A program made the translations under genes and the position numbers. DNA of 64,000 bases, from positions 33,677,856 through 33,741,855 of the forward strand of contig OZ020515.1 in assembly GCA_963971425.1 (NCBI GenBank). The letters are read 5' to 3'. The DNA is from Bryoerythrophyllum caledonicum (Eukaryota; Streptophyta; Bryopsida; Pottiales; Pottiaceae). Below, in pieces: positions 2,549 to 26,960 of this stretch (position 1 is its first letter; every line of letters starts with the position of its first letter). A model generated the notes under the pieces. It made no database searches. It saw nothing but the letters and a program-made list of their open reading frames with translations, and was not told where the DNA came from.

Positions 2549-3683
2549 CTTCAAGATAACACAAGAAAAAGGACAGAGGTTTAGTTATCAAGAGATATTG
2601 GCAAATATGTAAATGACGGCTCCAATCAGAGGAGAGAGATACAAATAAGAAATGCTTATCCTCGACACGAGGATAACTTCAGATATTGAGTATTTCAACA
2701 TTGAATTAGGGAAATGTACAATAATTCAACAATCAGTTATGACAACACATTGTTGATTAAACCCGGAGTGAGCACACCAAATGTACAGAATATTTCAAAC
2801 GAAGATCAGCATTCAGAAATTCATTTATCAAAATTCGGATTTGTAAAATTATCTCAATCAATTTGAAATGGCTAGAAACCAATCTTTTTTTATGATGGAA
2901 CAGACAGCACAATACCTCAGTGAGTTATCCTCGACCCGAGGATAGACCTGCGAAAGAAATCTGAAGCACAGAAAAGAATGTATGACATTGGCATTCACCA
3001 CCTCATAGTTCGAAGAATACATGCATCTCAGATGACATTAAACTCGGAGTCAGTTATCCTCGACTCGAGAATAACCATCATAAAGTAAGTGATCCAGATA
3101 TTGTATATCATACTTTTGATATCCTCGACTCGAGAATGACAGACATGTTGGATATTACACCCGTCTAGTGCAAATCAAGACTTGACATCAATTCTTGATT
3201 CAGCTGATGAATTCAGGTTATACTTAATGTTGTTTCGTCGCATTCCAACAAAACTACATGCGTTATCCTCGAGCCGAGGATAATTCTTTTTTCAACTTGC
3301 ATCCCGTTTACCTTACAGTACTTTACAAGATTCAATAGTTTTATTCTCGAGTCGAGGATAAACTTTAAAAATAATGTCCCGTTAGTGATGGATTTGATTC
3401 GATTATGTGAGTTCAAGTTATCCTCGACCCGAGGATAACAGTGCTACAGTGATTCCGTAATATGCGGAGTGTCACAGATAGAGATTTAGTTTAGAGACAA
3501 ACAAGAACCGCGAAAGTGATCAATATCACTTAATAACGTGCGATGGGGAGACCTGTACTCTTGCACAGAAAGCAGAGTAGAAAACATTGAAATGACCTGT
3601 GCGACACAGGCAAATAGGAAATGAATATGATTTCAACCAACGAGCAAGAAATACAACCACATAAGAAATACAGACTCACTTAC
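2549..3683 (-). other. 5' intron of the DUF7869-type gene, packed with palindromes
   Basis: On the minus strand a GTAAGT donor lies at 3683-3678 (CAGGAGT before it) and an acceptor ends at 2549, immediately before the ATG. This predicts a 1135-nt intron just upstream of the start codon, with a non-coding first exon at about 3684-3960. Seven copies of the 21-nt palindrome lie inside it. No other coding potential is visible. The donor choice is inferred from its consensus only; other donors are possible. Confidence 0.5.
2656..3438. repeat. cluster of seven 21-nt palindromes (family 1)
   Basis: Copies at 2656-2676, 2925-2944, 3054-3074, 3120-3137, 3263-3283, 3341-3361 and 3418-3438. Each has arms TTATCCTCG and CGAGGATAA around a 3-nt centre (ACA, ACC, ACT, AGC, AGT), with 0-2 mismatches. 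The flanks of the copies are unrelated to each other, so the palindrome itself is the repeated unit. Spacing is 56-250 bp and irregular. Confidence 0.9.
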
Positions 3684-4597
3684 ACTCCTGCCCTAAAAAA
3701 CTATCCAAAACATTCATGTCCCAAAAAACGACCTGGAACAATAAAAACCAGTTCAGCATCTTACTGAGCAAAGGCAAGAGCTGAAGCACAGAAGTGGAAG
3801 CGGAGGCGAGGAAGAGAGAGCTTCAGAGAGGGAAGAGTTCGAAATGAGTATTTCCAGGGGAAAGTTAGAATGTCGTGATGGACTTCGGTGCACAAAAAAC
3901 GGAGGAGGGCGGGAAACTTGAAAGACTTGTTCCAACGGCGGCATTTTTGGGCGGGAAAACAATGTATTTTTGGCACATCTTTTAAGGTGACCTTTTTAAG
4001 TTGTCGAGTCACTTCAATTTAGAAATGCGACCAACCCGAATAAGACAAAATGAGATTCGTTTTGACAAAATCGGATTTTCTAATGAATAAAAAACTGAAA
4101 GTCATATTTGGTTTCATATGTAAAATAAAAATAAAAATAAACAATAATCTGCTACATTAGTTTTAGGGTAAAAAAAAGGTTTTTTAAAAAAAATAAGCCT
4201 TGTAAAATGAGAATCATTTTCAAGAATATAACTCTTGGAATATTAAAAGTTTTAACATATATAATTTGTGTTGATATTGTTTTCAAATAAGAATTGAAGA
4301 TAATTTAATTTGGTTTTTAAAAAAAGTTGTATATTCATTTAGGCATTCTTCATTTCATTGATAAAAAATCAAAATTTTAATCAACTTTAGATTATATTTA
4401 AGTAAGTTGATAAATGTTTTTGGTCACACACAAGAAGAAGAAGAACTCTAGTTCAAAAGATGGCGTGAATAAAGTGTTTATTTGATCCACCGCTAAGTCC
4501 ATGTCCACCGGACTTATATCACACACATATTTGTTCTTCAAAGTTGACGAAGAAGGGGAAAAATGATTAATTTTGTTCACAATCTTTGAATATAAAA

Positions 4598-5046
4598 TGA
4601 ACTTTCTTTGAGCTAATTCATGCAATTTGATGACTTTCTAATTAAAGGTTATCCTTGATTTGAGGATAATTTTTTTGACTATAATTAGTAGTCAATTGCT
4701 ATGTATTGAAAACTAGAAAATGGTATAATTTTTTTTTTAAATCACTAAACTGTATAGTGTAATACGATGTGAATTTGAAAACTACTCATGGATCATTGCA
4801 CTGTCAATAATTCTTTATGTCTTTTTCTCGAGTGGCTTAAGTCTTAATGTGTTTCTTAGTATTGCTTATATAAAACTGTAGTGAATCAAATACATGTAGT
4901 TTTCTTTAAGAACGACTAAAATAAAATTTCATTGGTTTGGTATGTTCGTATTGTGTATCATAAGTTTTAAGAAATTTTTAGTTGACAATTGCAACTTTAA
5001 ATTTGAAAAGCAAGTTGTGGACCACTATGAAAAATCAAGTGCAATG
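4598..5046. repeat. AT-rich block, copy 1 of a local duplication
   Basis: This block matches 7348-7780 with many substitutions and small indels, in the same orientation. Shared landmarks in order are ATGCAATTTG, the palindrome TTATCCTTGA..., TAGAAAATGGTATAA, TGTATAGTGTAATA, TTGCTTATATAAAACT, AAATTTCATTGGTTTGG and GTGTATCATAAGTT. A partial third copy lies at 7165-7347. No terminal repeats or protein were found, so the mechanism is unknown. Confidence 0.75.
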
Positions 5047-5194
5047 TCAAGTTCAAGAAAAACATTTGTCGTATAGGCACAATTTTTTTAAAATGTATAA
5101 GTGAAGTATATTAAATTTTTTTTTATCAAATCATACATGAGGTTTTTAAGCAGGTCCATAAATTATCAAGTCATACATGAGGTTTTTAAGTAGA

Positions 5195-5345
5195 AACCCT
5201 ATAAACCCTAGAAATCCTAAACCCTAAAATTCTAGAAACCCTAAATCCTAAAACCCTAGAAACCCTAAAAATCCTTAAAAACTCTGTAAATCCTAAAAAC
5301 CTAAAAACTCTAAAACTATAAAATCCTAAACCCTAAACCTAAGAT
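5195..5345. repeat. degenerate interstitial telomere-like tract
   Basis: Irregular runs of AAACCCTA, AACCCTAAA, AATCCTAAA and AACTCTAAA over about 150 bp. They resemble the complement of the plant telomere unit TTTAGGG but with frequent substitutions and spacing changes. A shorter similar stretch lies near 5949-5972. It may be an old insertion at a repaired break, or simply a degenerate satellite. Confidence 0.6.
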
Positions 5346-6282
5346 TTCGCCGTAACATGTGTGTTGTTGCTAGTGAATACCATGTCGATTTGGGCAACCG
5401 TACATTTCTAGAGTGGCTTTTAAGGACAAGCTGAAGAAGATGAAGGATGCCATAATCAGGTGTCCACGGGCATAGAAACTTCAAGTATTATATTTGTTTC
5501 CTTGGTTACTCATTACACTATAATCAACAGTTTAGAATTGATTTTGGTATGCAATTTCGAGGAACTTTTATTGGGGTTAAGTAATATTGAAGTATTTTGA
5601 ACACGTTAAGTGGTTCTACAAAGGTAGATAAGCAAGGAGATAGTTCACATTATAACTGACGTGAAGTAAACTATTGAAATTTTGCAGTCTCCGGTTCGAA
5701 TCCTAGAACGATGATGGTCCGCAATGGCAAGATGAGTTTGATTTGTACTTTTGTAGATTTTCATAGTCACCCATGATTGAAATGGACCCATTTTTTAAAG
5801 CAAGTTTATTACAAACTTATCAATGTTTTAATCCAAAAATTTGAACAATTTCCACGTAGCATTCACATTATTCACATGGCAAATAATTGGTGTAATGTAC
5901 TAGCATATTTCTTATATATAACTTAAAAACTAGCCCCTTCATATATACTAAACCCTTAACCCTAAACCTAAGGGTGCTCTTTGCCATCTCCAAATTCGAA
6001 TCTAGTTTTACTTTTTCAAACATATTTTCAATCCAAATACAATTTAACATTAACCCCTAAACGTCCTTGGGGGGTTGAAACGCTGAAATACAGTCAAAAA
6101 TCCCTCAAAATGAAATTCCATGTAGAGCTCAATGAGAGAAAAATATTCAAAAAATAACCATAAGATCCTCTTCAAACATAGCCAAATAATAAGTGAGCCA
6201 ATTCTTGTGTACTTTGGACATGATTTAGGCCTCCATCCACTCCAAAAAAGCTACGTTTGGGGGTTGAAATTAGTTGGGCAGA

Positions 6283-6346
6283 CCCTAGCAGCTGTTGTTG
6301 AGACCCCAACAGCTATTGCTGGGGGCCCCAGCGATTGTTGTTGGGG
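6283..6346. repeat. three adjacent 21-nt imperfect palindromes (family 4)
   Basis: Units at 6283-6303, 6304-6324 and 6326-6346. Each begins CCCYA and runs through AGCAGCT/ACAGCTATTG-like sequence; the second and third end TGGGG, so each of those can fold with CCCCA pairing to TGGGG. Only one array was seen. Confidence 0.6.
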
Positions 6347-6794
6347 TTAAGTATAAGATATAGAATAAATCATTAACAGTTAAAATGCTTTGAGGCTGAT
6401 GAATGATGTTCAAAAAATATTGGATGAATCTCTTTTTAATCAATTTCAACTCTAAACTTGTAAGTGTTGTAATTCTAGCTCTTAAACATTTCTCACGCTG
6501 CATTTATTTGTAGTAAACAAATTAATCATAGAATAGAACTTACTTAATTGTTATGAAAATGTGATTTATCTAAAAATTAAATATAGAAGGAAAAGAAATC
6601 TTAATGCATATTCAAAAACAAGATAAGATAATCCAGATTTCAATTGTGGATATAGTCTCTACTTCTGCAAAAGTTCCACGGAAATAGGCAACATGACACT
6701 AAATTTTCCACAGATATTGGGTACTCTAGAGCCTAATTTCCACGGTTAATCATTAGGTTTCTTCAAAAGCAGGGCTAGAAATTTCCGACAATTC

Positions 6795-6840
6795 ATCGCT
6801 CACGTCCCACCGCTCATTGAGCATTTTTCACCGCTCACAA
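6795..6840. repeat. short CCGCTCA repeat
   Basis: Contains CGCTCACGTCCCACCGCTCA, then TTTTTCACCGCTCAC. The same heptad motif forms a longer array at 52029-52120 beside a pogo-type transposase, and its inverse occurs at 29697-29730. Probably a remnant terminus of that transposon family. Confidence 0.5.
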
Positions 6841-7164
6841 CCTAGCATTCCTGTGAAGTAAATGAAAGTCATCAAAGATCAAATGCTAAATGCTTCATCA
6901 ATTTCAAACAATGGAGAAACTATAAAATCTTAACAAGTTTGAGTGAAATAACAGTTTTAAAGAGAATATATGAAAAGTATCTAGAAGTCTTTTTACTAAA
7001 TTTATAATTTTTTAACTTTCCATCCATTAAAGCAATAAAAGATAGAATATTCATGTCAAAGAGGCCTAAAATAGGAAAAAAATGAGGAAATATAAACCTC
7101 TTCTAAAGTATATAACGCAAACAGATTTAACCTTGATTAAAAAGATAAGACTTAAATAAATACT

Positions 7165-7780
7165 TATAAATTTAAAATATGATGTGAATTTGAAAAGTAT
7201 TCATGGATCATGGTGTTTGATGTCTTTTTTATCTAGAGACTTAAGTCTTATTGTGTTTCTTAGGATTGCTTATATAAAACTATAGTAAATCAAATACATG
7301 TAGTTTTTTTTAAGAACGACTAAAATAAAATTTCATTGGTTTGGTATGTTTGAGCAAAATCATGCAATTTGGTGACTTTCTGATTAGAGGTTATCCTTGA
7401 TTCGAGGATAAACTTTCCATTTATAACTAGAAGTCAATTGCAATGTATTGGAAAATTAGAAAATGGTATAAAATTGATATAACCACTAAATTGTATAGTG
7501 TAATATGATGAATTTGAAAAGTATTCATGGATCATGGTGTTTGTAATTCTTTATGTCTTTTTTATCTAGTGACTTAAGTCTTCTTGTGTTTCTTAGGATT
7601 GCTTATATAAAACTATAGTAAATCAAATACATGTAGTTTTTTTTAGAACGACTAAAACAAAATTTCATTGGTTTGGTATGTTTGTATTGTGTATCATAAG
7701 TTGTAAGAAATTGTTAATGGACAATTGCAACTTTAAACTTGAAATGCAATATGTGGACCACTTTGAAAAATTATTACAAA
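7165..7780. repeat. AT-rich block, copies 2a and 2b of the local duplication
   Basis: Two tandem partial units: 7165-7347 matches the middle and end of copy 1, and 7348-7780 matches nearly all of it, including the family 1 palindrome at 7391-7411. The palindrome arms here carry T-to-C style differences from the consensus (TTATCCTTG / CGAGGATAA), as does copy 1. Confidence 0.7.
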
Positions 7781-8349
7781 CTTACAATTTACGGCATGAA
7801 ATTAACACGTATCGGAACAAAAAAGCCACATAAATGTAGTTTTATATAGATCCACTCAAAGATTCTTAATTTGATGAACAATGACTCTAATAAATGTTTA
7901 CAATGTTACCATTAAAAAAATATTTAGATTTGAAATTTACAATACAATAGTAATGAAAAATTAATATTATTAACGATGATTTTAAAAATTAAAAGATTCT
8001 AAATACGTTTATACCAAGTAAAATTTTTATGTACTTCCCAAAGAAACTAATTTAGAATGCATTTTTATCATGCAAGAGTATGCCAAAGTTGGTAGTTTTC
8101 AAATCATTCAAAGTACAATTAAATTGACGGATGAAAACGTCCCATATTCATTCCAATTCACGAACATTCATTAACCGAAAATTAAATTGAAGCATCACGT
8201 CATTTCGATATAGTTTCTAAATTCTAAATAATTGGACATTCATCTACCGCTTAGCTTTAAAGTTAGGTTTGGTTTGGTCTCGAAAGGAGGGGAAAAGATG
8301 AAGAGCCGCCAAACCCTTCACTTTTTCAAGAGTGAATAAGGGCGTGACA

Positions 8350-8350
<1 letters not shown>

Positions 8351-8401
<51 letters not shown>

Positions 8402-8700
8402 GCTCTCGCGCTTATTTCCAGGACACGCTTTTTCTCCCTTCTCTCCCTCTCTCTTCGCTCGCTTCCTCTGTTTGATAGCGTGAGCGTGAGTGTGTTCGTG
8501 AGGGTCATTGTATAGCTTCTGCATGAGTGTTTGAGGTGTGTCTAAGACTGTGTGCGCGTGTGTGTGTGAGTGTGTGTGAGGTGTGCGTGAGTGTGTGTGA
8601 GGTGTGTGTGATTCTGTGTGGTGTGTGAGAGCGTGTCTGTGAGGTCTATGTTATTGTTTGTGTGAGGTTTGTTTGTGTGGTGTGTGTGTGGCTGTCAACG
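8351..8700. repeat. CT microsatellite followed by TG-rich simple sequence
   Basis: 8351-8403 is an almost pure (CT)n run; about 8480-8700 is GTGTGTGAG/TGTGAGGTGTG-rich. Both lie upstream of gene A, within its presumed promoter and first exon. Pyrimidine-rich CT tracts are common in plant 5' leaders. The long Arg/Glu or Ser/Leu open frames through this stretch are artefacts of the repeat. Confidence 0.85.
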
Positions 8701-9058
8701 CTTAGGGTTTCATGAGTATTTGTCTTTGAGGTCTGTGAGCTGTGAAGTATTTTGTGAGGTGTTTCGTGAGTGTCAGTGATTGGGGTTTCAGTTCTGTGAG
8801 GTGTGTTTGTTATTGTCAGCACTTAGGGTTTGAGGTGTGTGAGGTGTGTTTGTGATTTTCAGCGCTTAGCGTTTGAAAGTTCTGCATTAAGTTTCACTGA
8901 AGCGAGGGTTTTGGTAGTGATTTGTAAAGTGTTTCAACAGTTTAGGTTTTGGAGATTGGAAGTTTTGGATTTAATTTCACGCAAGCTAGGGTTTTGCTTG
9001 TGCACGACAACTGCAATCAGATTCAGAGCTTACAATTGCAATATTTGCACACACTCCA

Positions 9059-9818
9059 AGTAAGTTTATGATAACTTTCACAATTCTGCATTCTGCGTTT
9101 CAAGCTGCATCTGATTTTCTGTCTAAAACATTGTAAACGTGCCTGAGTGGAGAAGTGTCCGACACCATCGTTTGAAAGTTTGTAATGCTAATTTGTTTGT
9201 ATGTATGTTTGTTTGTCTGCAATTTTATTGCAATGAACTGTAGTTTGTAAAAAAACAGCCAATACTGGAAGCCGTTTATTCTCGAACCGAGCATAAACTT
9301 GTTGCCATGGTTCATTGGTGGTTTCTGGTCCATTATGTGGTTGAATTTCGACCAATTTATCATTGACTCGAGAATAAATGCAAGAGGAAACCATGACAAA
9401 ATGTATAGTATCCTCGAGCCGAGGATAAACTGGTGAATATTCAATGATAAATTGAACCAGAAATCATGCATAATTGTACTCGGTCACTAATTATTCTGTG
9501 AAATATACTTGCCCGTCAAATTTTCATACATGGCTCCAAGAATGTTTCCATTCTGGTCCCACGTTTATCCTTAAGTCGAGGATAAATATCTTAAAAATCA
9601 AAATACAATGAACGCCCCTTTATAAATGTCTATACGACTCGTGAATAAAGAACTTAGGAATCCATTGCTTCAGCCAAGTTACGCTAGATGTTATACTCGA
9701 TCGAGAATACCAAGACTCACAATCTAATGTAACTTGCGAAGAATGAGAATTTCTATCTTCGACTCGAGGATAAGTAAGTATGTGATTACTAATATCCATG
9801 TGGTGTGGCATTCTGCAG
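9059..9818 (+). other. 5' intron of gene A, packed with palindromes
   Basis: A canonical donor GTAAGT at 9059 (after ACTCCAA) and the acceptor TTCTGCAG ending at 9818 define a 760-nt intron whose acceptor abuts the ATG of gene A. Family 1 palindromes lie at 9276-9296, 9357-9377, 9409-9428, 9565-9585, 9628-9648 (degenerate), 9691-9710 (degenerate) and 9754-9773. The arrangement mirrors the 5' intron of the DUF7869-type gene. Confidence 0.6.
9276..9773. repeat. cluster of seven 21-nt palindromes (family 1)
   Basis: Seven copies in 500 bp, five well conserved and two degenerate. Best copies: 9409-9428 (GTATCCTCGAGCCGAGGATA context) and 9754-9773. Centres and arms vary independently from copy to copy, and the flanks are unrelated. 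Confidence 0.85.
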
Positions 9819-11132
9819 ATGGCCAATGACCCAATGGATATTGTCGACGACTACGATTATTCAGCGGAGAGGTATTTCATTGAGATGTTTAGAAATCCAC
9901 TCGATCCATCCCCCTTCATCGACGACGTGGTAGAAAACTATGGCACACTGTGGGAGTTTCAAGATACAGTGCAAACATGGTCGTTCTCCAAATCCGGGAA
10001 GTTTGTGCAGATTACGATCAAGGTCAATGACAGTACCCCTTACGTGCTTTTGAACTGCAGGGAGAGAGTGACCTTTGTCGAGCAGCAACAAAACGAGTAT
10101 ATTGTGCTCGGAGTTCAAACATTCGATGATGCAGGAGCTGATCTTCCCCACTGCCATTCCATTGTTGTCAAAGTGGGTTTGCATTACGGGCAATTCGATT
10201 CTCGGAGTTGCTCGAATCTGTGGTTCGAAACGGGCAAGGATCGCTAAAAGAGGCGTTCGAGAAGTACTTGCCCTGGACTAACGATGATGTTGTCAAGGTC
10301 AATAGGCAATTAGTTCGAATCCATCAACTCCTTACAGCATATGAAGCTCGGCCGGTTCCTGTCGAAGGCATTGCACGTCGTCGTGCACGCGCTCCTGGTG
10401 CCGGTGCAACCAATCCATCAGGCTCATCTGCACCTCAAACTTCAAGCCGTGCTCCGCCCAGAAGACCCTCGACAACAACTACAACGGCTGGAGAGCCCTC
10501 CTCAAAAAAACGGAAGTCAACGGCTGGTGGAAGCTCGACCTCAACCATTACGCGGGCAGCAACTCCGAATAAATCCCGAAACGATCCGTAGGTGGATTTT
10601 GAGGCGGTCACCGAATCGCAGCACGTGTTCTGGGAAGAGTGCAAGGGTTGCTTCCCGTTCGACAGTTCAACATATGGGGTTGGAATCGAGCAATGCGTCA
10701 TTGCGAAAGCCTAATACGTCATTCGGGGAATGGAGGAGGGCATCGTGTCAAGCACCATGGACTTCCTCGTGCAACTTGGCGAAATTGGACAACGCCAGAA
10801 GATCTGTGTTTGCCCAGTCGATGACGATGGTGAGCCTCTTCAGCGGCAGCCGACGTCATGGGACAATATTAAGAACGGCAAGTTCATGCTTATTAATGGA
10901 CCGCATAGCGTGGAAGCCTCTAGGCGTCTGCAAAACGTCGAAAAATGCAGTGAGAATCGAAGAAATGTTTTGCAGCGTTGGGACGCGTATGTAGTTTGGT
11001 CAATAGATCCTCTGAAGTTGCAGAGGATTTCCAAATTTTACAACGACACCAACTACATGGACCACGCTCAACCGACATGGGGGAACCAGATCTTGAGTTG
11101 CCGAAGAATTTGGCTCAACTCGGGCCGACCGA
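9819..11132 (+). pseudogene. gene A, 5' part: ParB-like domain protein, interrupted by a retrotransposon
   Basis: Starts at the ATG at 9819, directly after an acceptor. The N-terminal part (about 115 residues) is followed by a frameshift near 10170-10173, where GTCAAAGTGG needs one more base to continue into FALRAIRFSELLESVV. Then come a Pro/Ser/Thr-rich, Lys-rich linker, in-frame TAG at 10589-10591 and TAA at 10712-10714. After these the same frame continues with a segment carrying KFMLINGPHSVEASRRL. The H-S-x-x-A-S pattern recalls the ParB N-terminal (ParB/sulfiredoxin) fold motif, but this is a motif-level call. The open frame reaches 11132 and resumes at 22183 after the LTR element, giving GRP-SYQQREGS across the empty site. 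The exon ends at 22247. Decayed gene, or a readthrough gene if the stops are bypassed. Confidence 0.65.
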
Positions 11133-12539
11133 TGTCGAGTAGAGAGTCTTTGCTTCAGGAAAACGCAGGGTTCTTGGCTGCACTTAGTTTAGAGAGGGAA
11201 AGGGAGAATATGGAACATATAATTTTGTGTTCAAGCCCATATAAACTCATAAGTCCTCATTTAGCATACGAAAAAGGCCTCCAATCTTCAACTTGTATAA
11301 TAAAACTCGATGTACATATAATAAGACATGATGCAGATGTCTTGTAGAACTTGTCTCCCAAAAACTTAACTCAAAACATTAATTATCCTTAATCTAAATC
11401 AAGCCTTAATTAAACTCTGATTAAATTAACTAAGTTCGCTTAATAATAATTAATTAATACTTAAGATAATTATATTTAAATAATATGATTAACCTTAATT
11501 AATCCACTTAATCTTAGTTAAGCTAATTAATTACAATTAGACTAGTTAATCTTACTTAACACAATTAACCTTGATTAAGATAATTAATTCCCTAATTAAC
11601 CACAATCCCACATACCCTTACCCTTACATACCCTAACCACTTCATACCCTTCTCCTATATACCCTTACTCCCTTTGAAATCATTTATCTAACCTCTCATT
11701 AAGTACAAACCGAACTCAAATTCTCTTTTAAACTCTTGATTAACCTTCTAATTCAAAATACCACTACGGTTTCATACAAACTCGGAATGAGTCGTGCTAT
11801 AGCTACTTGGAAAGCCACTAAAATACACCACATGCACACCAAATTTCACCTCCAAAAACCCATCTGGCCAGCCGCTATGTGCAATCAAAGTTACTTCTTA
11901 CAAAAACTCAAATCAGCTGACCCCTCTTCTTTCAAACTAGTGCTATGACTTCACAAAAGCTCGAAATAGAGCATAAGATAGCTCTTTGGAAAGCTATTTA
12001 CAGTGTACAAACACTCACCAAAGATGTCATTTAGATATACTTTGTACAACTTGCTACAAGGCTTCAAACCTACTGCTCATGAAAACATGGGGCAGCAGAC
12101 CCCCTTGTGTTCGACAAGGCGCCGTTCACTCATACTTTGAGCTCTAAGACCGAGTGATAGCTTCATAGAGAGCTAACAACAAGGGCTACAACATACTCAA
12201 AAATCAAAACAAACTACAACAAAAACAACCCGAGAGAGCCCCCGCAGTCCAGCCCTCCTTGGTAAGGAAGAACCCAACCCCCAAAACGGGAAAAAGAGCC
12301 AATCACAACTAACCTCAGCCCATTCAAAGGCCACATGGGCATCTTAAACCCCATTGGTTGCTCAAATTCTCCCCCTTATCAACTCTTATCATCCCTCTAT
12401 CCCTTCTATTCTTTGCATTTTTAAACACTAACTACCTGGTCATCAATCTAAAGACCGGGTTTCTTCAACAACAACAACTAACTACAAATATATTAAGAAA
12501 AATAACAACAAATGGTCTCAACTTCAGCCCCTAGATGGA

Positions 12540-12971
12540 TTAAACATGTAAAAAGTCAAGAATCTCACGAAGAACAGCAGCAATGTAACTCGATCGCCTT
12601 TCACTACCCAAGTGTCTGAGCGGGCCTTGAAGCCAAAGACGGTGACCAAGGTCATTGGACAAGCGGGTTACCATTTGACCTTCGTTAGTGTTTTGAAAAC
12701 ACCCTTCAAACACCACTTGATGGCCTTCGACAAGCACATCTCCAACCTCCAAGACGATTACTAAAGTTCTTGCCTCCGGTTGTAAACTTCTTAAACTTGT
12801 CAAAGGAACTTGTTGAGGATCAAAAGCGGTACGTGGTTGAACACGACGCTCAGAAGGCCCTGCTTCCTCTCGCTCACGTCGCCTTGATGTTGATGGTTGA
12901 GAAAGTTGAATTAGATCATCCGGTGAGTGAGCTAAAGGAAACTCCCAATCATCAGGGTCTTGAGAAGCCAT
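12540..12971 (-). CDS. LTR-encoded ORF, 143 aa, unknown function (3' LTR copy)
   Basis: Same protein as the copy in the 5' LTR. In this position it lies downstream of pol and would be reached only by a transcript starting in the 3' LTR, or as the 3' end of the genomic RNA. Confidence 0.35.
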   Translation of the reverse strand: MASQDPDDWEFPLAHSPDDLIQLSQPSTSRRREREEAGPSERRVQPRTAFDPQQVPLTSLRSLQPEARTLVIVLEVGDVLVEGHQVVFEGCFQNTNEGQMVTRLSNDLGHRLWLQGPLRHLGSERRSSYIAAVLREILDFLHV

Positions 12972-13275
12972 ACTATCAACCTATAGAAACTAAGAAGAAA
13001 CAATCCAAACTAATAATGACCTGAAGTAATGCATAAGGCACGGCAACCATCTACCCTTTATATGTTTTTCGATAACTTCATCAAGAAGCTTGCCTTCCCT
13101 AACATTAACTCAATGACATTTCTTTAATTGGAAACGGCTAAGCAAATTTAAGTAGCCATAGATGCCTTTCCATCTAAAAGATGGTCCACAGTAAAGTCAG
13201 ATTAAGAAACAAACGACTTATCTGTAGTAGTATAAGACTATTGCAGGCTCGATGATAATCGCCAAGTTGCAGACT

Positions 13276-13590: not shown

Positions 13591-13614
13591 GCACATCCTC
13601 CGTGATGTGCCAAT

Positions 13615-17088: not shown

Positions 17089-17171
17089 ACGACCTCTACT
17101 ATTTACATTGGGGAATGAAACTGTTGAGAAACCCCTTGCACCCGCGGACCCCCATCTTCCACGTGTGCAAT

Positions 17172-18095: not shown

Positions 18096-18119
18096 ATCAA
18101 TTGAAGATTCAATATCGGA

Positions 18120-19688
18120 TTAAAGTTTGTAGGCTGGTACTTTACCTCTTCCCTTTGCAGAATCTTCCTTCTCTTTTCCCTTCTTACTGCTCATCCTTTC
18201 CTCCCATTTGTCCTTTGGTAGTGGTGCATTCCCTGAATGTAAGTTAGAAGGTCCAGCGTCTTGCTTCTGGCGAGTGTGATTTGCTGGCCCTTGTGTTGGA
18301 GTAGTATCTTTGTTGCCTGAGGGCTTCCTCTTGCTTACTGGCTCCGTTGTCTCTTCTTCTTCATCTCTGCCACGTTTAGCTTCGACCAACGCATCGCTAG
18401 GCAAATCGATCCCTTGCTCATTCTCCAGATATGCCCTGATGGTGATCGCATCTACCGGATCATCCCATCCAGTAAGCTGTCTGATAGCTTGTGCTCCTCT
18501 GACCATCAGTTCTGTGGGTACATGAGATAAGATTTTCACCTTATCCTGCTCGACCTCAATGCTATAGGTTTCTGCTTCTTTGCCTTTCGAAGAACTGCCA
18601 TTTTTCAACCGCTCATCCATCAACTTCTTCATGCCCCCTCTTCCAAAGTTGGTGTTCAAAACTTCTTCCGTCGAAGCATCTCTAATCCTTCCTTCTTTGA
18701 AAGAAATAATGCCATTCTTCATAGCATCTGCATACGACGTACAATCTCCACGCTTGTGGCTTGGATCATCACACCAAATGCACCTCATGACAAAATCCTT
18801 CTGCCCTCCACTAGGTTGAGAACCACTCGTTTTGGTATTCCTCATAAGCGTACTCATCTCCACCTTCAATTCCTTGATGCCCTTCATAAGCTCTTGAATC
18901 GTAGCATCATCCACCGTTTTGCCCTTTGAGGAACTTAGAGGAGTAGAAGTAGGCAGGATTGATGTTGAAGCTTTGTTTTCTACTATCGGTAAAGCTTCTA
19001 TCCTTGCTCCAAGTCCTCTTGCCTTCACACGTTGTTGTTTGGCAATAATGCTCACCCCTTCTTCCAATCTCCTCCAATTAGTGGTAAAACCACCTTCGGT
19101 AGTACTATCTGAGAGAAAAAGAAGCAATCTGTCTTCTAATGCTTCATCCGCAGCTTGTAGAAAAAGCTCAGACTTCCTCACCTCCAGTAGACGCTTCTCA
19201 ACCAAAGGTAACTGTCCAAATTTCTTCTCAAACTCTCTGAGTAATTCGTTAGGCCCCATGTGCTTGCCAGGCCGTTGTTCCACCCAATCAAGAAACCCTC
19301 TCTTGGACATCCTCTCAGTATCTTCATCAAAGTACTCATCTCTGAGTCTTTCTTCAAATGCAGCCCATGAGGGCACATCTATACCTTCATGCAACTGTCT
19401 GACCCTCTCCCTGATCTCAGGTACAACTGCAAGGTGGAAAGTCTCAATCATCCTTTCTCCAGCTACTTGATAAATCTCCATCTCGCATCCATAGACCCTC
19501 AAAAACTTGGAAACATTCTTGCCATCAAACCTCCCTAATTTGTTGATGACAGTCTTCAAAGCCTTCGTAGCTCCTTGTCCCGATGTATTAGCAGCTTGTT
19601 GGCCCATAAGCATCTGCATGGCCCTCATAAACTCCTCTGCAAGATTCTGACCACCTCCACCACCTCGAGTTCCTCCAGAATCATCCAT
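18120..19688 (-). CDS. gag: element 1 gag (capsid/nucleocapsid)
   Basis: 522 codons from MDDSGGTRGG. The middle has a typical retrotransposon capsid helical region (FRMSKRG-type and GPNELLREFEKKFGQLPL, residues about 150-185). A CCHC zinc knuckle CIWCDDPSHKRGDC is near residue 300. The last third is Lys/Glu-rich and ends APAYKL, then TAA. Alignment by eye with element 2 shows the frame should continue (element 2 reads KLQSDIE), so this TAA is a single-base nonsense change and the element may be defective unless read through. Confidence 0.9.
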   Translation of the reverse strand: MDDSGGTRGGGGGQNLAEEFMRAMQMLMGQQAANTSGQGATKALKTVINKLGRFDGKNVSKFLRVYGCEMEIYQVAGERMIETFHLAVVPEIRERVRQLHEGIDVPSWAAFEERLRDEYFDEDTERMSKRGFLDWVEQRPGKHMGPNELLREFEKKFGQLPLVEKRLLEVRKSELFLQAADEALEDRLLLFLSDSTTEGGFTTNWRRLEEGVSIIAKQQRVKARGLGARIEALPIVENKASTSILPTSTPLSSSKGKTVDDATIQELMKGIKELKVEMSTLMRNTKTSGSQPSGGQKDFVMRCIWCDDPSHKRGDCTSYADAMKNGIISFKEGRIRDASTEEVLNTNFGRGGMKKLMDERLKNGSSSKGKEAETYSIEVEQDKVKILSHVPTELMVRGAQAIRQLTGWDDPVDAITIRAYLENEQGIDLPSDALVEAKRGRDEEEETTEPVSKRKPSGNKDTTPTQGPANHTRQKQDAGPSNLHSGNAPLPKDKWEERMSSKKGKEKEDSAKGRGKVPAYKL

Positions 19689-19718
19689 CTTTCCCTCTTA
19701 ACCAAATGCCCTAAAGCT

Positions 19719-19736
19719 CTCTCAGTGGAAGCACCA
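19719..19736 (-). other. primer binding site of element 1
   Basis: TGGTGCTTCCACTGAGAG on the minus strand, 2 nt from the end of the 5' LTR. It starts with TGG as required to pair with a tRNA CCA end. Element 2 has the same 18 nt. I could not assign the tRNA. Confidence 0.75.
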
Positions 19737-21145
19737 AATGTCGAGTAGAGAGTCTTTGCTTCAGGAAAACGCAGGGTTCTTGGCTGCACTTAGTTTAGAG
19801 AGGGAAAGGGAGAATATGGAACATATAATTTTGTGTTCAAGCCCATATAAACTCATAAGTCCTCATTTAGCATACGAAAAAGGCCTCCAATCTTCAACTT
19901 GTATAATAAAACTCGATGTACATATAATAAGACATGATGCAGATGTCTTGTAGAACTTGTCTCCCAAAAACTTAACTCAAAACATTAATTATCCTTAATC
20001 TAAATCAAGCCTTAATTAAACTCTGATTAAATTAACTAAGTTCGCTTAATAATAATTAATTAATACTTAAGATAATTATATTTAAATAATATGATTAACC
20101 TTAATTAATCCACTTAATCTTAGTTAAGCTAATTAATTACAATTAGACTAGTTAATCTTACTTAACACAATTAACCTTGATTAAGATAATTAATTCCCTA
20201 ATTAACCACAATCCCACATACCCTTACCCTTACATACCCTAACCACTTCATACCCTTCTCCTATATACCCTTACTCCCTTTGAAATCATTTATCTAACCT
20301 CTCATTAAGTACAAACCGAACTCAAATTCTCTTTTAAACTCTTGATTAACCTTCTAATTCAAAATACCACTACGGTTTCATACAAACTCGGAATGAGTCG
20401 TGCTATAGCTACTTGGAAAGCCACTAAAATACACCACATGCACACCAAATTTCACCTCCAAAAACCCATCTGGCCAGCCGCTATGTGCAATCAAAGTTAC
20501 TTCTTACAAAAACTCAAATCAGCTGACCCCTCTTCTTTCAAACTAGTGCTATGACTTCACAAAAGCTCGAAATAGAGCATAAGATAGCTCTTTGGAAAGC
20601 TATTTACAGTGTACAAACACTCACCAAAGATGTCATTTAGATATACTTTGTACAACTTGCTACAAGGCTTCAAACCTACTGCTCATGAAAACATGGGGCA
20701 GCAGACCCCCTTGTGTTCGACAAGGCGCCGTTCACTCATACTTTGAGCTCTAAGACCGAGTGATAGCTTCATAGAGAGCTAACAACAAGGGCTACAACAT
20801 ACTCAAAAATCAAAACAAACTACAACAAAAACAACCCGAGAGAGCCCCCGCAGTCCAGCCCTCCTTGGTAAGGAAGAACCCAACCCCCAAAACGGGAAAA
20901 AGAGCCAATCACAACTAACCTCAGCCCATTCAAAGGCCACATGGGCATCTTAAACCCCATTGGTTGCTCAAATTCTCCCCCTTATCAACTCTTATCATCC
21001 CTCTATCCCTTCTATTCTTTGCATTTTTAAACACTAACTACCTGGTCATCAATCTAAAGACCGGGTTTCTTCAACAACAACAACTAACTACAAATATATT
21101 AAGAAAAATAACAACAAATGGTCTCAACTTCAGCCCCTAGATGGA

Positions 21146-21577
21146 TTAAACATGTAAAAAGTCAAGAATCTCACGAAGAACAGCAGCAATGTAACTCGAT
21201 CGCCTTTCACTACCCAAGTGTCTGAGCGGGCCTTGAAGCCAAAGACGGTGACCAAGGTCATTGGACAAGCGGGTTACCATTTGACCTTCGTTAGTGTTTT
21301 GAAAACACCCTTCAAACACCACTTGATGGCCTTCGACAAGCACATCTCCAACCTCCAAGACGATTACTAAAGTTCTTGCCTCCGGTTGTAAACTTCTTAA
21401 ACTTGTCAAAGGAACTTGTTGAGGATCAAAAGCGGTACGTGGTTGAACACGACGCTCAGAAGGCCCTGCTTCCTCTCGCTCACGTCGCCTTGATGTTGAT
21501 GGTTGAGAAAGTTGAATTAGATCATCCGGTGAGTGAGCTAAAGGAAACTCCCAATCATCAGGGTCTTGAGAAGCCAT
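21146..21577 (-). CDS. LTR-encoded ORF, 143 aa, unknown function (5' LTR copy)
   Basis: Opens with MASQDPDDWEFPLAHSPDDL, then an Arg/Glu/Ser-rich stretch and a C-terminal half rich in Leu/Val/Arg. It lies in the sense direction of the element, shortly after the TATA box, and would be the first ORF of the genomic transcript, well ahead of gag. The identical copy is 12540-12971. I recognise no family. It may be a captured fragment, a small accessory protein or an upstream ORF without function; identical LTRs mean conservation within the element is not evidence of selection. Confidence 0.4.
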   Translation of the reverse strand: MASQDPDDWEFPLAHSPDDLIQLSQPSTSRRREREEAGPSERRVQPRTAFDPQQVPLTSLRSLQPEARTLVIVLEVGDVLVEGHQVVFEGCFQNTNEGQMVTRLSNDLGHRLWLQGPLRHLGSERRSSYIAAVLREILDFLHV

Positions 21578-21660
21578 ACTATCAACCTATAGAAACTAAG
21601 AAGAAACAATCCAAACTAATAATGACCTGAAGTAATGCATAAGGCACGGCAACCATCTAC

Positions 21661-21668
21661 CCTTTATA
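21661..21668 (-). promoter_or_regulatory. TATA box of element 1 in 5' LTR
   Basis: Minus strand TATAAAGG, with an equal copy at 13055-13062 in the 3' LTR. It sits about 510 bp into the LTR and about 85 bp before the ATG of the LTR ORF, so transcription would be expected to start near 21635. Inferred from sequence and position. Confidence 0.5.
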
Positions 21669-22267
21669 TGTTTTTCGATAACTTCATCAAGAAGCTTGCC
21701 TTCCCTAACATTAACTCAATGACATTTCTTTAATTGGAAACGGCTAAGCAAATTTAAGTAGCCATAGATGCCTTTCCATCTAAAAGATGGTCCACAGTAA
21801 AGTCAGATTAAGAAACAAACGACTTATCTGTAGTAGTATAAGACTATTGCAGGCTCGATGATAATCGCCAAGTTGCAGACTTGGTTGGCTGTTAGAGCCC
21901 GTTTGTTATCCGCCGACTGATTCCGAGTTCGAGTCTCATTGAACTCGTTGAACTGTTCGGGCGGCTGCGGCTTGGCACTTACTAGTGAGAGCAGGAAAAT
22001 AAGCAGCCAACTGGCCACCTACCTACCCCTGAGCTAGAGACAAGAGATGCAGCACATCCAAGCTAGGCTAACAAGCTCCAAATGTTCCCACATTGAATTA
22101 AACTGTAGGTCACTCTACGACCACACTTTTTGTATCTATATTATCTTTTTACATAGTGTAGTAATTTACAGCACGACACCGAGTTACCAGCAAAGAGAGG
22201 GCTCAACTCGTGGCAATGGTGCCATGTTTGACCAGGAGAAATACTCGGTAAGATTTCAGTCAGAATG

Positions 22268-22287
22268 TATCCTCGACTCGAGGATAA
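22268..22287. repeat. 21-nt palindrome (family 1) in gene A intron
   Basis: Near-perfect copy, TATCCTCGA-C-TCGAGGATA core, in the 143-nt intron 22248-22390. Confidence 0.9.
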
Positions 22288-23736
22288 TTCATGATTCATT
22301 ACAACTACCATTATATCCCTCAAGCATGTCTTCATTATTTTCCTAGAATGTGTTTAGATATTTGACATGCCTAGGTTTCCTGAACTGCAGTTATTCTCCA
22401 AGTTGATTGTCAACCGCTTCCAAAACATCGACCCTACGAAGGAAGGGAAGCAGGTGAATAAGTCATCAGATATCACGAATGAGATCAAGGTGATCACATT
22501 GCCTGATGACGTTTTCAAGCTGTGGGAAGCTTTTCTTGACAAGCACACAAAAGGCGAGATTATCAACCCAGACACGATGGTGATGTATAATGAGGCAAAA
22601 AATTTCAGAGCCTCTCCCATTCATCGTGAATTTTTCAAGAGGTTGGACCACCTCTCCGACAAGGACTTACGGGATCTGTTCACCTACCTGGTGGACAGTG
22701 AAGGCCCGAATGGGTATCCGAAAGTCACGCTCCGGCGGACAGGTGTTGTTCATGGGTCCTGCTATGACTACGAGGAGTGGGCAGATCGCCGGAAGAGGAA
22801 GCGCATTGTCCTTCAGGAATTGATCGCAATAGGTCCCTTGAAGTTTTTGATGCCAGACGGGTCCACAAACGACGAGGTGTGGAAGGTGTGGAAGCAAGAA
22901 CATTGCGTGTCTTCTACGACGTACAATATGCTCCTTGTCTGGCCCGACAAGGAGTTCTTCTCCATGAGGCTCACAAATGCCGGGAAGCTAAAGCGAGCTT
23001 CTCAGTTGGTGGAGAAGTTTCCGAACGTGTTTCCATTCTTTCGGAAGTTTTTGTATGTCAAGAGCCACATCGACCCCGTTGTTGGACCAGCCAAGCTCCG
23101 CGATTTTGATGGAGAGAAAATGGAGTTCGGCGAATACTTTGATCCCCCTGCGGAAGACAGAGAGTGGTTGCTTGGTCTCCTTGACCTTCGATAGGTCCCT
23201 GGGTGGTCTTCCAAGGAGGACTCATCAGATGAGCCATACTTCTCGGAGTTTTTGAAGACCTTAAAGACGCAGAGAAGCAAACCCACCCTGAACTCTCCGG
23301 CTGTTTGGGTGTGGATAACCTCTTCTGAGCAGCGAGCGGTGCAAGCTGAGAAGTATGCGGAGAGGAGGATGTTGAAGTATGTGTGCCTTCCGTCGAGGTA
23401 CATGCCATCCGCATTCGAGCGACTGAACATGGGGACATCGAGGTCGAAGTGTACTGAGGTGTACTTGCTGTTCCTTATTCGGGACGACCATCCCGATTCT
23501 TCGGCGCTACTGAAGAAGGTTGACTTGAATTACTCTGCCGCGGATACTCCATACTACACCGAAAGAAACAAGTATTTGGAGGCATGCTTCGCTGTTCACG
23601 GCTACGAGTTGCGGATGGAGATCTACCTTGAGCTCCTATCCGCATTCAACAAGCTCGGGAGCAGAGTTTTCGGTGTCTTTTGTGGCTCCAAGCTGTTGCT
23701 GGCAAGTAAGGTAATTGATCTCCTTCATTTCTTAGT

Positions 23737-23858
23737 TTATCCTCGGGTCGAGGATAAACCCGATAAATCACTCAATCACATTATTCCGTTTTCGGGTTCT
23801 CTAAATTATGCCACATCATGTTATGCTTAGCAAATGTTTATCCTCGTGTCGAGAATAA
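23737..23858. repeat. two 21-nt palindromes (family 1) in gene A intron
   Basis: Copies at 23737-23757 (centre GGG) and 23838-23858 (centre TGT), both in the predicted intron 23711-23930. Confidence 0.9.
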
Positions 23859-25051
23859 CTCGTATGCTTGCATCTCCATTTCTAGATTTCGTTGGTATTT
23901 AGTTTAACTCACTATTCTTGTCATTCGCAGATGTTTGGAACATCATTTTACGGTCTCGTGGACAAAGACTATCGCAATTTATACAAGCACAATGCAAAAA
24001 AATTGGATAAGTATGACATAAACGACTTCCTCCATAAGGATTGTGCGTATGTTAGTCGTCCACTGCCGCCGGATTCCGATGATCCTGAATCCGCACCAGC
24101 ACCCAACACTGATGATCGAAGGCCCTCCAGGACCGCTACCGCTCGCACAAGCTCTGCACAGAGGCCTTCGGAGACTGCTGCTGCAACGGCCTCATCCTCT
24201 GGTTTCCGTCAGGATTCAGTCCGCATTGACAACGAACCTGATGAGGATGCCGACCCTCCTCTCTCGCGCAGATCTCCTCTTCCGCTGAATCCCCCGGAAT
24301 CCAACGACAATGATACTCCGGAATTGGATACGTATGGGAGTATCATTGGTGTAAATCTCTTGTCCCTGGGACCCGACTCTGCTGGGCCATCATCACATAA
24401 TGCTGATGATGCAGGCGATTTACCGGTGCCATCATCCTCTGGAGTCAACATTACGGTGCTCCCCAATGAGGTCCCTTCCATTGTTATTCCCACTCTTCAA
24501 GGAGACGCCCCTGTTGATTTAGCACCTTCATCTGAAGAGGCGCCACCAGCTGAAGTAGTCACGATGCGGGATATTCCCATCATTCTGCTTTCGGACAGTG
24601 ACGACGAAGGACCAAGACCTCCTGCGGCCGGCCCATCGAATATTCAAACTCCTGTAGGTAAATGGCCTTTGAAACCGACTGTGATAGAGGCTTCCGACTT
24701 CTTTGTCAACGCTGCTGGAGAAGCCCCACCCCCTGAAAAGGTTGTAAAGTACGAATCTGGTGGTGATTTTTATCAGCATCTGGCTATCAAACACCTCATG
24801 GAGATGAAGGAGAAGCAGGATATGGTGGACCGCTTGGAAGAGTCAAAGCGCAGGCAGACAGAGATGGAGGCAGCTCTTGAGATGCAAAGGTTGGAGTTTG
24901 CCTTGGAGAAGGCACGGATTGAGGCAACTATTAGGGCTGAGCTTCAGCTTCAAATGAAGTCAGACCTTGCCCAGATGTACGTGAGGAGTCCTGTGAATTC
25001 GGGGGCAACATCATCTGGTCCTCCTCCCTCTGAGGTGCCTGTGAGCACGAG

Positions 25052-25266
25052 TTATCCTCGTGTCGAAGATAACTTAGGTTCAGGGCTCTCTACTCCCCTG
25101 CATCCTTCGGCTGGACTATCCCAGAGGGACCCGAATTATCCTGTTCGCAAAGCTTCCTCTCCTGATCAGCAACAGTCTCTTCCTCAAGAAGCACCTGCGT
25201 TCGCTCCCTCTGAGGAGCACTCTACAAGAAGAAGCCCTCCTTTTGAGTATCCTCGACCCGAGGATA
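25052..25266. repeat. two 21-nt palindromes (family 1) inside the last exon of gene A
   Basis: 25052-25072 is read SYPRVEDN and 25248-25266 is read EYPRPEDT, both in the frame of the 525-codon exon. Both copies use the same register, so the palindrome adds a YPR-x-ED peptide without a stop. Confidence 0.85.
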
Positions 25267-25694
25267 CGCCGGGTGTCTGCCTTCACCAGAACCCGCTTCC
25301 TCTCTCCGCTCCGATTCAACAGTCTGGGGAGTGCGGCGGAGAGGCCCGCGTAATCGACATTCCTGTGGTGGCCATGGATGTCACTCCGGTGGGGGAGGAT
25401 CGAGTGGATTACGAGCCGTCACCTGACGGACCTCGAAACGGAGCATCTGATTCTGACCAAGTTGGCTAGCTCTTTTTTTCATTTTTTTAGGCTACTTTAC
25501 GAGCTGCAGCCCTGTATTTTTTGAATGACTACTCATTGTCTCCAGCAGGTCTCATATGGGTTTGTTGGACTGCAGGCATCGGATCCATATGAGTTTTGAT
25601 GTACTTTAGGTAGAGTGTACATACTTGTAAAAGCATTTGTATAGAAATTTATAGAATTGTTTAACAATTCAATTTTCTTCAATTGTTTTCTCAG

Positions 25695-26671
25695 ATGAGA
25701 ATGGATGATATTGTTCATCGACCTCTTGCATTGAAGCCTTGGATTGGGAATGATTTACAGAAGTCGCTATGTGGGGGAGAATTGATGCAATCTGTGACGC
25801 TTCCTTTGCATATTGCTCAATGTGCATTTCATCAGGTAATTTCCATTGACTTTAGTGTGTGTTCGTCCTGTCCCAGGATTGTTTGCGGAGGAGTTTGTCC
25901 GTTGTTCCCAACCGGCGGCCAGACAAGTGGCTTAATATTGTTCTGGATATTAATGGCATCCTTTGCGAGATAGAGCATGCCCCTGGGTTGTCTAGAGACT
26001 CAGTGAGTCGGGCCGCGTATTCTTGCACCGCTCCTGCGTACATAGGTCCAAAAGCTGTATATACTCGCCTTGGAGTTCGTGCATTTCTGGCGGACATCCG
26101 AAACATAACGAACTCTATTATCGTCTGGAGCTCCATGAAGAAGTCTACTGTTGTTGAAATTGCAAAGTATCTTTTTTCGAACATGCCTTCTCCAGCTCTG
26201 GTTCTTGGTCAGGAGAGCTGTGATAGAATCGAAACCTCGCCCAATAAGTTCTTGATGGATCCGAATAATTCGAACAAGATGATCTTTTTGAAAACTCTGT
26301 CATCAACTTTATTTAGGCAACGACTTGAGTCGATGGTCCTAGATTCGGACAACACCCTTCTGATCGACGACAACCCGAAGAAGAGCGTTTGTAATCATAT
26401 GGGAAATGCCATATTTCTTCGTCCGTGGAGACATGCAGCCTGTGACGACGAGTTCCTTACCCAGGAACTTGTACCTTGGCTGCGACGTCTGGTTTTTGAA
26501 TGCCCTCTTGGGCAGTTACATGATTATGTTAATATCAATCGTATAGGGGTTGAGCCGTTGGAGCCTAATAGTCCTTTCATGAAATACATTGTAGATGGGA
26601 TGGAGCTCTCAAACAAGAACGTTGGCTATGTCTATGAAATTCCACATGGTTCTTCTTCGTCGGCTTCATAG
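25695..26671 (+). CDS. FCP1/NLI-like HAD-family phosphatase-like protein
   Basis: Two exons: 25695-25835 and 25877-26671, 311 residues in all. The ATG follows an acceptor-like TTTTCTCAG, so a 5' UTR intron is likely. The first block is IVLDINGILCE, the HAD motif I in the DxNG form that many plant FCP1-like proteins have, in place of DxDG; the last motif is LLIDDNPKKSVCN. Middle residues with SIIVWSSMKKSTV match motif II. Such proteins relate to RNA polymerase II CTD and NLI-interacting phosphatases. With Asn in place of the second Asp, true phosphatase activity is uncertain. The intron would be only 41 nt, unusually short. The frame is otherwise undamaged, in contrast to its neighbours. The stop is TAG. 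Confidence 0.75.
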
Positions 26672-26868
26672 TTCCATCGGCTCCTTTTTTGTAATATAGT
26701 AGGAATTTAGTATCGATATTGTAAATACTTTGTTTCATTTTGAATATATAAATATTTTACAACTTCAACAAGTTTATTTACTTTGTCTGGTGTTTTTTTT
26801 GTTATCTATGTGTTGTTATTCATCTGTTGGTTGGTTTTAGGATTCATCTTTGTTTTCAATATTATTGG

Positions 26869-26960
26869 TTATCCTCTGGTCGAGCGTGTTGTGTTTACTA
26901 TGGATCCTAGGTATATTGTATTCCTTTGGGCTTTCATATTTATCTTCGGGTCGAGCATGC
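26869..26960. repeat. two degenerate 21-nt palindromes (family 1)
   Basis: 26869-26889 (TTATCCTCTGGTCGAGCGTG) and 26940-26960 (TTATCTTCGGGTCGAGCATG) keep the left arm and the centre but have a decayed right arm. They lie in what appears to be an intron or 5' flank before the exon at 27026. Confidence 0.6.

Follow-up and report, generated by a model that had tools for sequence, protein, structure and literature searches.

To our knowledge, the way in which a transposon stays active under silencing has been worked out for few plant elements, VANC/VANDAL being one. VANDALs are Mutator-type transposons of Arabidopsis, with comparatively long target duplications and a MULE (Mutator-like element) transposase; in this anti-silencing system, VANC proteins bind their motifs and remove methylation. 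Passages of two papers (PMC5735166; PMC10398659) describe VANC21 as binding the motif YAGTATTAY in VANDAL21, within introns, between genes, and in the non-coding termini, VANC6 as having other motifs, and VANC targets as multiplying in the form of tandem repeats. Here we describe a short palindrome that recurs through a large DNA transposon of the moss Bryoerythrophyllum caledonicum (GenBank assembly GCA_963971425.1), found in a 64,000-nucleotide stretch of contig OZ020515.1 (forward strand), hereafter the window.

Further systems invite comparison with this locus. The TnpA sites of maize En/Spm are 12 bp long, non-palindromic, and confined to the element ends. Rickettsia palindromic elements are short palindromes in and between genes, some of them read in frame, and methyltransferases of the CcrM/HinfI type have GANTC specificity. 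Sola1 is listed for Physcomitrella in part of one survey (PMC9033089), and a passage on Sola2 gives it AT-rich, 4-bp target duplications (PMC3627910). The open-licence literature that we searched yielded no prior description of the moss repeat and, among the matches listed, no paper on DUF7869, the domain encoded next to it, or on palindromic intron motifs of moss transposons.

Results

The window (C2:33677856-33741855) lies within a 437-Mb genome of 894 contigs. Scored as TTATCCTCG-(2-4 nt)-CGAGGATAA, with mismatches counted over the 18 arm bases, the palindrome has 17 matches at ≤2 mismatches and 20 at ≤3, none of them outside 2.6-27 kb. Across 30 windows simulated from a first-order Markov model, the number of matches was 0 at ≤3 mismatches and averaged 0.57 at ≤4. 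An earlier note on this DNA had listed 23 sites with these arms. Twenty of the 23 hold at ≤3 mismatches, those at 26869 and 26940 are degenerate, and 9628 was rejected as a copy because it has 7 mismatches. The listed sites are otherwise present, with five registers one base off (3120 is properly 3119, 9409 is 9408, 9754 is 9753, 22268 is 22267, and 25248 is 25247). The note was right, at ≤3 mismatches, that the palindrome is absent from the interrupting gypsy retrotransposon and from 27-64 kb; two weaker sites, 38999 (4 mismatches) and 58681 (5 mismatches), are at chance level. Its assignment of the copies to two neighboring genes did not survive: they belong to one transposon, in which 4649 and 7391 are intergenic and 26869 and 26940 precede a further exon. 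Twenty of the 22 copies fall outside the approximate coding intervals and 16 of the 22 in predicted introns, including those of 5′ untranslated regions (5′-UTRs). By the information content of 143 copies at ≤4 mismatches from eight element stretches, the true motif comprises 19 bases, TATCCTCG-ANT-CGAGGATA; its outermost bases are weak, and the center is frequently other than ANT. The window copies, listed without strand, are as follows.

2656..2676, palindrome, 0 mismatches, DUF7869 5′-UTR intron
2925..2945, palindrome, 1 mismatch, DUF7869 5′-UTR intron
3054..3074, palindrome, 1 mismatch, DUF7869 5′-UTR intron
3119..3139, palindrome, 3 mismatches, DUF7869 5′-UTR intron
3263..3283, palindrome, 0 mismatches, DUF7869 5′-UTR intron
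3341..3361, palindrome, 1 mismatch, DUF7869 5′-UTR intron
3418..3438, palindrome, 0 mismatches, DUF7869 5′-UTR intron
4649..4669, intergenic palindrome, 2 mismatches, flanks resemble 7391 and the 255-bp miniature at L034
7391..7411, intergenic palindrome, 1 mismatch, flanks resemble 4649
9276..9296, palindrome, 2 mismatches, gene 2 5′-UTR intron
9357..9377, palindrome, 3 mismatches, gene 2 5′-UTR intron
9408..9428, palindrome, 1 mismatch, gene 2 5′-UTR intron
9565..9585, palindrome, 2 mismatches, gene 2 5′-UTR intron
9691..9710, palindrome with a 2-nt center, 3 mismatches, gene 2 5′-UTR intron
9753..9773, palindrome, 2 mismatches, gene 2 5′-UTR intron
22267..22287, palindrome, predicted intron preceding the methyltransferase-like exon
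23737..23757, palindrome, 0 mismatches, predicted intron, same place in copies A, C, G and D
23838..23858, palindrome, 1 mismatch, same predicted intron as 23737
25052..25072, palindrome in coding sequence, reads YPRVED
25247..25267, palindrome in coding sequence, reads YPRPED in the same frame as 25052
26869..26889, degenerate palindrome, 5 mismatches
26940..26960, degenerate palindrome, 4 mismatches, counterparts before the same exon in A, B, C, D and G

No known RNA family was matched at the gathering threshold, and the exact palindrome (20 fixed bases) occurred 0 times in viral contigs.

The palindrome recurs as a motif in the interior of a family of large moss DNA transposons, here family 1. 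Its carrier is about 18-19 kb long, with a DUF7869 gene head-to-head with a second gene (gene 2). When copies were aligned, sharp element ends were seen, with terminal inverted repeats of 26 bases starting AACACCATATTC or AACGCCA, and 4-bp target duplications (AATA, CCTT, and CAAC, respectively) flank A, B, and W (the window copy), the three copies for which both ends were read. Copy A measures 19,441 bp, copy B 19,468 bp, and the window copy 18,356 bp without its gypsy insertion; the left end of the latter lies at C2:33676691 (L025:8836), 1,165 bases left of base 1.

1..28241, no strand, window part of the family-1 transposon, AACACCATATTCATTAAAATGAGACA at both ends with CAAC on either side, same ends in other copies
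28216..28241, minus strand, right terminal inverted repeat, 26 bp, from aligned copy ends

All comparison loci come from this one genome and, save for the window and its left flank (L025), from chromosome C1, in clusters picked for holding palindromes. The family-1 regions read comprise seven C1 clusters and copy W with its left flank, some of them incomplete or read to one end. In eight of eight, a DUF7869 frame lies on one strand and gene-2 exons lie across a spacer on the other; as far as the regions extend, the gene-2 side runs G2a, methyltransferase-like exon, G2b, a phosphatase frame resembling NLI-interacting factor, and O27. Copy B is inserted, with its CCTT duplication, inside another DUF7869 gene, that of a family 2 (C1:20511001-20551000; L028, L009-L011); with one CCTT kept, the flanks stay in frame over the joint, with one stop 30 residues on. 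A search with the window DUF7869 protein, in which 71 of 4,487 first-look candidates were scored, found at least 13 stop-free matches with a 949-aa open frame, and these intact frames suggest recent transposon activity. Copy A likewise sits in another family-2 element. Inside the DUF7869-side end (L025:8836 onward), family 1 has a further inverted pair, TGAGAC...GTCTCA; the same place in the family-2 elements that host copies A and B reads TGGGAG...CTCCCA, both arms differing from family 1.

Many copies with unlike flanks inside one element could indicate that the palindrome itself is a minimal mobile hairpin of the Rickettsia palindromic element type, one of three options that the earlier note had raised. 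We mapped palindromes with 150-base flanks between copies A, B, C, and G, which are 92-98% alike. Every alignable directed mapping (167/167) was ungapped within the 21 bases, leaving 0 empty sites; 25 mappings could not be aligned, mostly since the first cluster of copy G lies outside the stretch read. Differences between the copies were point changes, many of them, as judged by eye, C-to-T or G-to-A at CG. The clusters read lie in a repeat with inverted ends and target duplications, places sampled elsewhere are mostly element DNA, and local duplications were observed, namely a ~603-nt unit in the first intron of copy A and a ~47-nt period in family 2. With 0 of 167 mappings gapped, the mobile hairpin is rejected for the copies read, and we give it next to no credence. 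The note's view that the unit itself had multiplied is only partly right: in the copies read, the palindrome spreads with the transposon, with a miniature derivative, and by local duplication. The note had named as refuting its proposal the outcome that all copies are parts of a larger known repeat. At nearly all places read, the copies are indeed parts of a larger repeat, albeit one for which the literature searched gave no earlier description; a tandem array of a related palindrome (L001) is the exception.

Family 2, the host of copies A and B, is a transposon of the same type. Its DUF7869 is 72-79% identical to P0157, its gene-2-like exon is 40-44% identical to P0072, and the first 12 bases of its DUF7869-side end are the same as in family 1. 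It carries its own palindrome, CACTTTAG-CTCGANTCGAG-CTAAAGTG, placed much as in family 1, with one array ahead of the DUF7869 gene. Family 1 thus reads TTATC-CTCGANTCGAG-GATAA and family 2 TTTAG-CTCGANTCGAG-CTAAA, and a variant core in family 2, CTCTANTAGAG, is altered on both sides. At ≤3 mismatches, matches to motif 1 and motif 2 numbered 18/0, 17/0, 19/0, 17/0, and 15/0 in five family-1 stretches, as against 0/24 (plus one match to a motif 3, discussed below) and 1/19 in two family-2 hosts; 20 mononucleotide shuffles of 120 kb contained no motif match at that threshold. In the stretches read, each family thus uses its own motif nearly exclusively. The two motifs have a common core, and their outer arms differ symmetrically, left and right alike. 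The palindrome listings for neighboring families include chance matches (core mismatches 3).

This symmetric change, together with a dyad that is conserved where its flanks have diverged, favors a site for a dimeric factor, an option that the earlier note had raised. We infer binding and function from these patterns: the palindromes are probably family-specific binding sites of a dimeric factor, itself probably encoded by the element, that works in the manner of VANC. The site could instead belong to a host activator or repressor, collected by the transposon for expression or used by the host for repression. Clusters do occupy the predicted 5′-UTR introns of both divergent genes, such introns being a usual place of plant enhancers, and the core is common to both families. 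However, a single host specificity would not favor a symmetric outer-arm change with near-exclusive use by family, and sites also occur in coding sequence and deep within gene 2. We regard a host factor as unlikely.

Conservation was assessed in the introns flanking the methyltransferase-like exon across subfamilies A, C, G, W, and D (with F for the upstream intron). Palindrome arms are identical at 110/112 (98%) and 172/192 (90%) positions in the two introns, compared with 228/543 (42%) and 610/1,614 (38%) for the flanks; one arm pair of the upstream intron (C and D) matches at 7/16 and is counted in the total. The contrast is strong, though not a calibrated test, because the pairs are non-independent and the palindrome was found by its consensus. 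The motif is thus kept in introns with diverged flanks, and also at two coding-exon places. The coding palindromes of G2b read YPRxED. Copies A, B, C, G, W, and D share the positions of both; in copy D, the first reads HLRIED and a third is present. Both sites are present in four of four database relatives (35-48% identity), where one of the eight reads YPRHKD. Seven coding sites (from A, W, and D) use TAT in 6 (CAT once), CCT in 6 (CTT once), GAT in 7, and GAG in 5/7, against exon-wide frequencies in G2b of 8/13, 31/65, 26/45, and 24/37, respectively. The sites being related, this codon choice is suggestive of constraint at the DNA level. The palindrome is read through near a terminus in 6 of 76 database relatives of gene-2 exons (P0001, P0002, P0009, P0010, P0017, and P0063), a count without chance control from patterns drawn after three of the six had been seen; a loosened scan returned, among 120 DUF7869 relatives, a single internal match, which was unrelated.

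Symmetry might also reflect base pairing if the palindrome acted in RNA, as a short intron stem in splicing, retention, or shielding. Placement in predicted introns (16 of 22 copies) would suit such a stem, which a palindrome supplies identically to both divergent transcripts. The two intergenic and two coding copies speak against it, and changes to one arm are common and uncompensated save at the outermost pair; an RNA stem, likewise suggested in the earlier note, is therefore disfavored and very improbable.

The genome-wide arm search proposed in that note returned 5,211 sites at ≤2 mismatches (both strands giving the same sites, as palindromes do), against 4 for the reversed-pattern control. 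Seven isolated places of 2 kb each were chosen among 100 genome matches listed; family-1 DNA covers 86-100% of five, 46% of one, and 8% of one (L034). As for five further loci, L003-L005 are family-1 DNA, L002 is a diverged relative, and L001 (C1:111156-114176) holds a different, tandem array at 1333-2195 with a ~42-base period, built from a related palindrome, TTATCCCCGGGCCGGGGATAA, and without family-1 similarity. Measured against the family-1 pattern, this array has 20 units at ≤3 mismatches and 10 sites at ≤2, which means that some of the 5,211 sites lie elsewhere than in the element. It may stand for a further transposon family or for a satellite that arose from a motif of this kind.

L034 (C1:22514000-22516000) contains, at 894-1148, a 255-bp stretch with one perfect palindrome inside and GAAG duplicated outside its ends, which are like the inverted ends of family 1 (7/26 mismatches each). 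By its sequence, it looks like a miniature, non-autonomous relative of the transposon. The left flank of its palindrome resembles the flanks of 4649 and 7391 and a piece of copy E; 4649 and 7391 share flanks and adjoin a repeated AT-rich segment. Given this similarity, both may have arrived with such miniatures, and their flanks suggest that there are more of the L034 type.

A miniature that retains just ends and one palindrome is what one might expect if the motif were an internal site bound by the DUF7869 protein, as transposase, for transposition and not regulation. In addition, each of the eight family-1 regions that were read has the palindrome together with the DUF7869 gene, and the arms of the palindrome change with the DUF7869 family. 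Yet the copies are spread through the element instead of being concentrated at its ends, the ends have their own 26-bp repeats, and no fold could be assigned to DUF7869. This alternative, too, we judge improbable.

The predicted genes of the transposon in the window are as follows.

1..2549, minus strand, DUF7869 gene (PF25273, E 6.9e-37; P0077 with 60% and 55% identity in two pieces)
2550..3685, minus strand, predicted 5′-UTR intron of the DUF7869 gene, splice-like GTAAGTGAGT and AG/ATG, seven palindromes, abuts the ATG
9060..9818, plus strand, predicted 5′-UTR intron of gene 2, GTAAGT and CAG/ATG, six palindromes, abuts the ATG at 9819
9819..11132, plus strand, first coding exon region of gene 2 (G2a), in-frame stops after ~142 aa, interrupted by gypsy
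22391..23710, plus strand, methyltransferase-like exon of gene 2, one in-frame stop at 23192, fold from relative P0001
23931..25469, plus strand, last exon of gene 2 (G2b), 512 aa
25856..26671, plus strand, phosphatase frame resembling NLI-interacting factor (PF03031, 1.6e-9)
27026..27586, plus strand, conserved exon O27, 53-81% identity in copies A, B, C, D and G

The DUF7869 gene has its ATG, read from the sequence, at 2549-2547 within an open frame at 725-2584, and its C-terminal part extends from ~740 to beyond the left edge of the window. DUF7869 is the sole Pfam family above the cut-off in this protein, which is likely a transposase; a profile search against PDB sequences gave three matches at E 0.41-0.59, regarded as chance. 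G2a is 57.7-71.2% identical in the other seven copies, copy D also giving a longer alignment at 36.5%. The central domain of gene 2 models like a degenerate DNA amino-methyltransferase (AlphaFold of relative P0001, followed by Foldseek), the predicted model having the DNA amino-methyltransferase fold of the catalytic domain, and CcrM tops the fold matches, tied with others. In P0001, a strand ends in D270, followed by LSQVPG, so that the catalytic DPPY-type ([DNS]PP[YFW]) motif may be replaced there (D-LSQVPG). A gene-2 profile matched no PDB sequence at E ≤ 1, and of 113 stretches in viral contigs that fit a pattern, none was a relative. Those protein relatives that carry species names belong to two mosses, Ceratodon purpureus and Physcomitrium patens.

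Discussion

The explanation that we favor is that each transposon family would encode a dimeric protein specific for the palindrome of that family, with the specificity of the dimer shifting from one family to the next. The main candidate for this binder is gene 2, with its degenerate amino-methyltransferase-like domain, and the second is the DUF7869 protein. With sites between the two genes as well as in both 5′-UTR introns and along gene 2, the protein could coat the transposon, and once bound, it might switch on its own promoters or shield them from silencing, as VANC does on VANDAL. A bolder version, to which we attach a small though real chance, holds that a moss transposon captured a bacterial-type GANTC DNA methyltransferase that no longer catalyzes methylation but still reads DNA. 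Its dimer would coat the transposon through the GANTC-centered palindromes as an epigenetic switch, and every family would have evolved a longer palindrome of its own with a protein to match, such that each activates itself alone.

Several observations weigh against a family-specific dimer site. Foldseek found no PDB match for the DUF7869 fold at E ≤ 0.001 (best 0.28), and for that reason its role as transposase is put forward as likely and not as observed. The model of the gene-2 domain is modest (predicted local distance difference test, pLDDT, 67; predicted template modeling score, pTM, 0.54; Foldseek E 3.4e-3 or worse). Within family 1, among 78 copies (from A, D, F, and W), changes on the two arms show significant pairing at the outermost pair alone, where 7 complementary double changes compare with 3.2 expected (p 0.025, 10 pairs tested). 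One of the family-2 hosts contains a single family-1 palindrome. Near copy C, a possible third family is weakly indicated by a few degenerate copies of ATTCA(A/G)-CTCGA...TCGAG-(T/C)TGAAT (3 motif-3 and 3 motif-2 matches), and the 7.6 kb around a distant DUF7869 relative beside copy E (26-41% identity) show no such palindrome family. Finally, the miniature keeps its ends and one palindrome, as would suit transposition no less than regulation; because of it, we lowered our confidence in the dimer site slightly and in a host factor by a trace, and raised that in a transposition site somewhat.

If the dimer-site explanation is true, the element would be an independent moss case of a transposon that stays active under silencing. 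It would offer a long, symmetric, countable site, two families with a clean motif exchange, and genes to test, so that the idea of a transposon addressing itself by a private motif would become directly testable in a plant group; gene replacement is easy in mosses. The element could also be the source of a plant DNA-binding protein whose recognition site is long.

The remainder of the window holds features of its own. The retrotransposon inserted into the transposon, with ends read exactly from the sequence, entered recently, given that its long terminal repeats (LTRs) are 99.7% alike.

11133..22178, minus strand, gypsy LTR retrotransposon inserted into the transposon, LTRs ~2.45 kb, CCGA on both sides

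A second, related gypsy retrotransposon lies at ~34200-43700, with a main protein 79% identical to that of the first. To the right of the transposon, a 270-aa open frame at 32275-33087 (minus strand) has no Pfam match. A direct duplication at 46507-49158 (~1.9-kb spacing, 72-82% alike) contains open frames without a Pfam match, and a DDE_1 transposase open frame of 513 aa occupies 52594-54135 (E 7.6e-22).

Comparison with known systems

Each known system shares part of what is seen here. As in Rickettsia palindromic elements, the palindromes lie in and between genes, some in frame; independent insertion, however, finds no counterpart in the four moss copies mapped (0/167 gapped). The consensus center reads GANTC, as in CcrM/HinfI specificity, and CcrM is a top (tied) fold match of the gene-2 domain, whereas the DPPY-type motif may be replaced and the center is often not GANTC. 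The 4-bp duplications and short inverted ends found here, along with presence in mosses, fit Sola among others; in the passage on Sola2 (PMC3627910) the duplications are AT-rich, while CCTT and CAAC occur here besides AATA. En/Spm TnpA offers an element-encoded protein, many short sites, and a link to methylation state, but the moss palindromes are found throughout the element.

With VANDAL/VANC, as portrayed in parts of PMC5735166, the moss transposon shares a short motif repeated through non-coding parts (here, 20 of 22 copies outside coding intervals), a motif that differs between related families (here, five family-1 against two family-2 stretches), and motif multiplication by tandem repeats. 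VANC motifs span 8-9 bases and are not termed a palindrome in the main text of that paper, in contrast to the 19-21-base dyad here, and the second gene of the moss element has, in the model, an amino-methyltransferase-like fold. The 4-bp duplications in three copies, together with the finding of no MULE transposase domain, place the moss element outside the VANC/VANDAL system itself. By analogy, VANC/VANDAL nonetheless appears to be the nearest described system.

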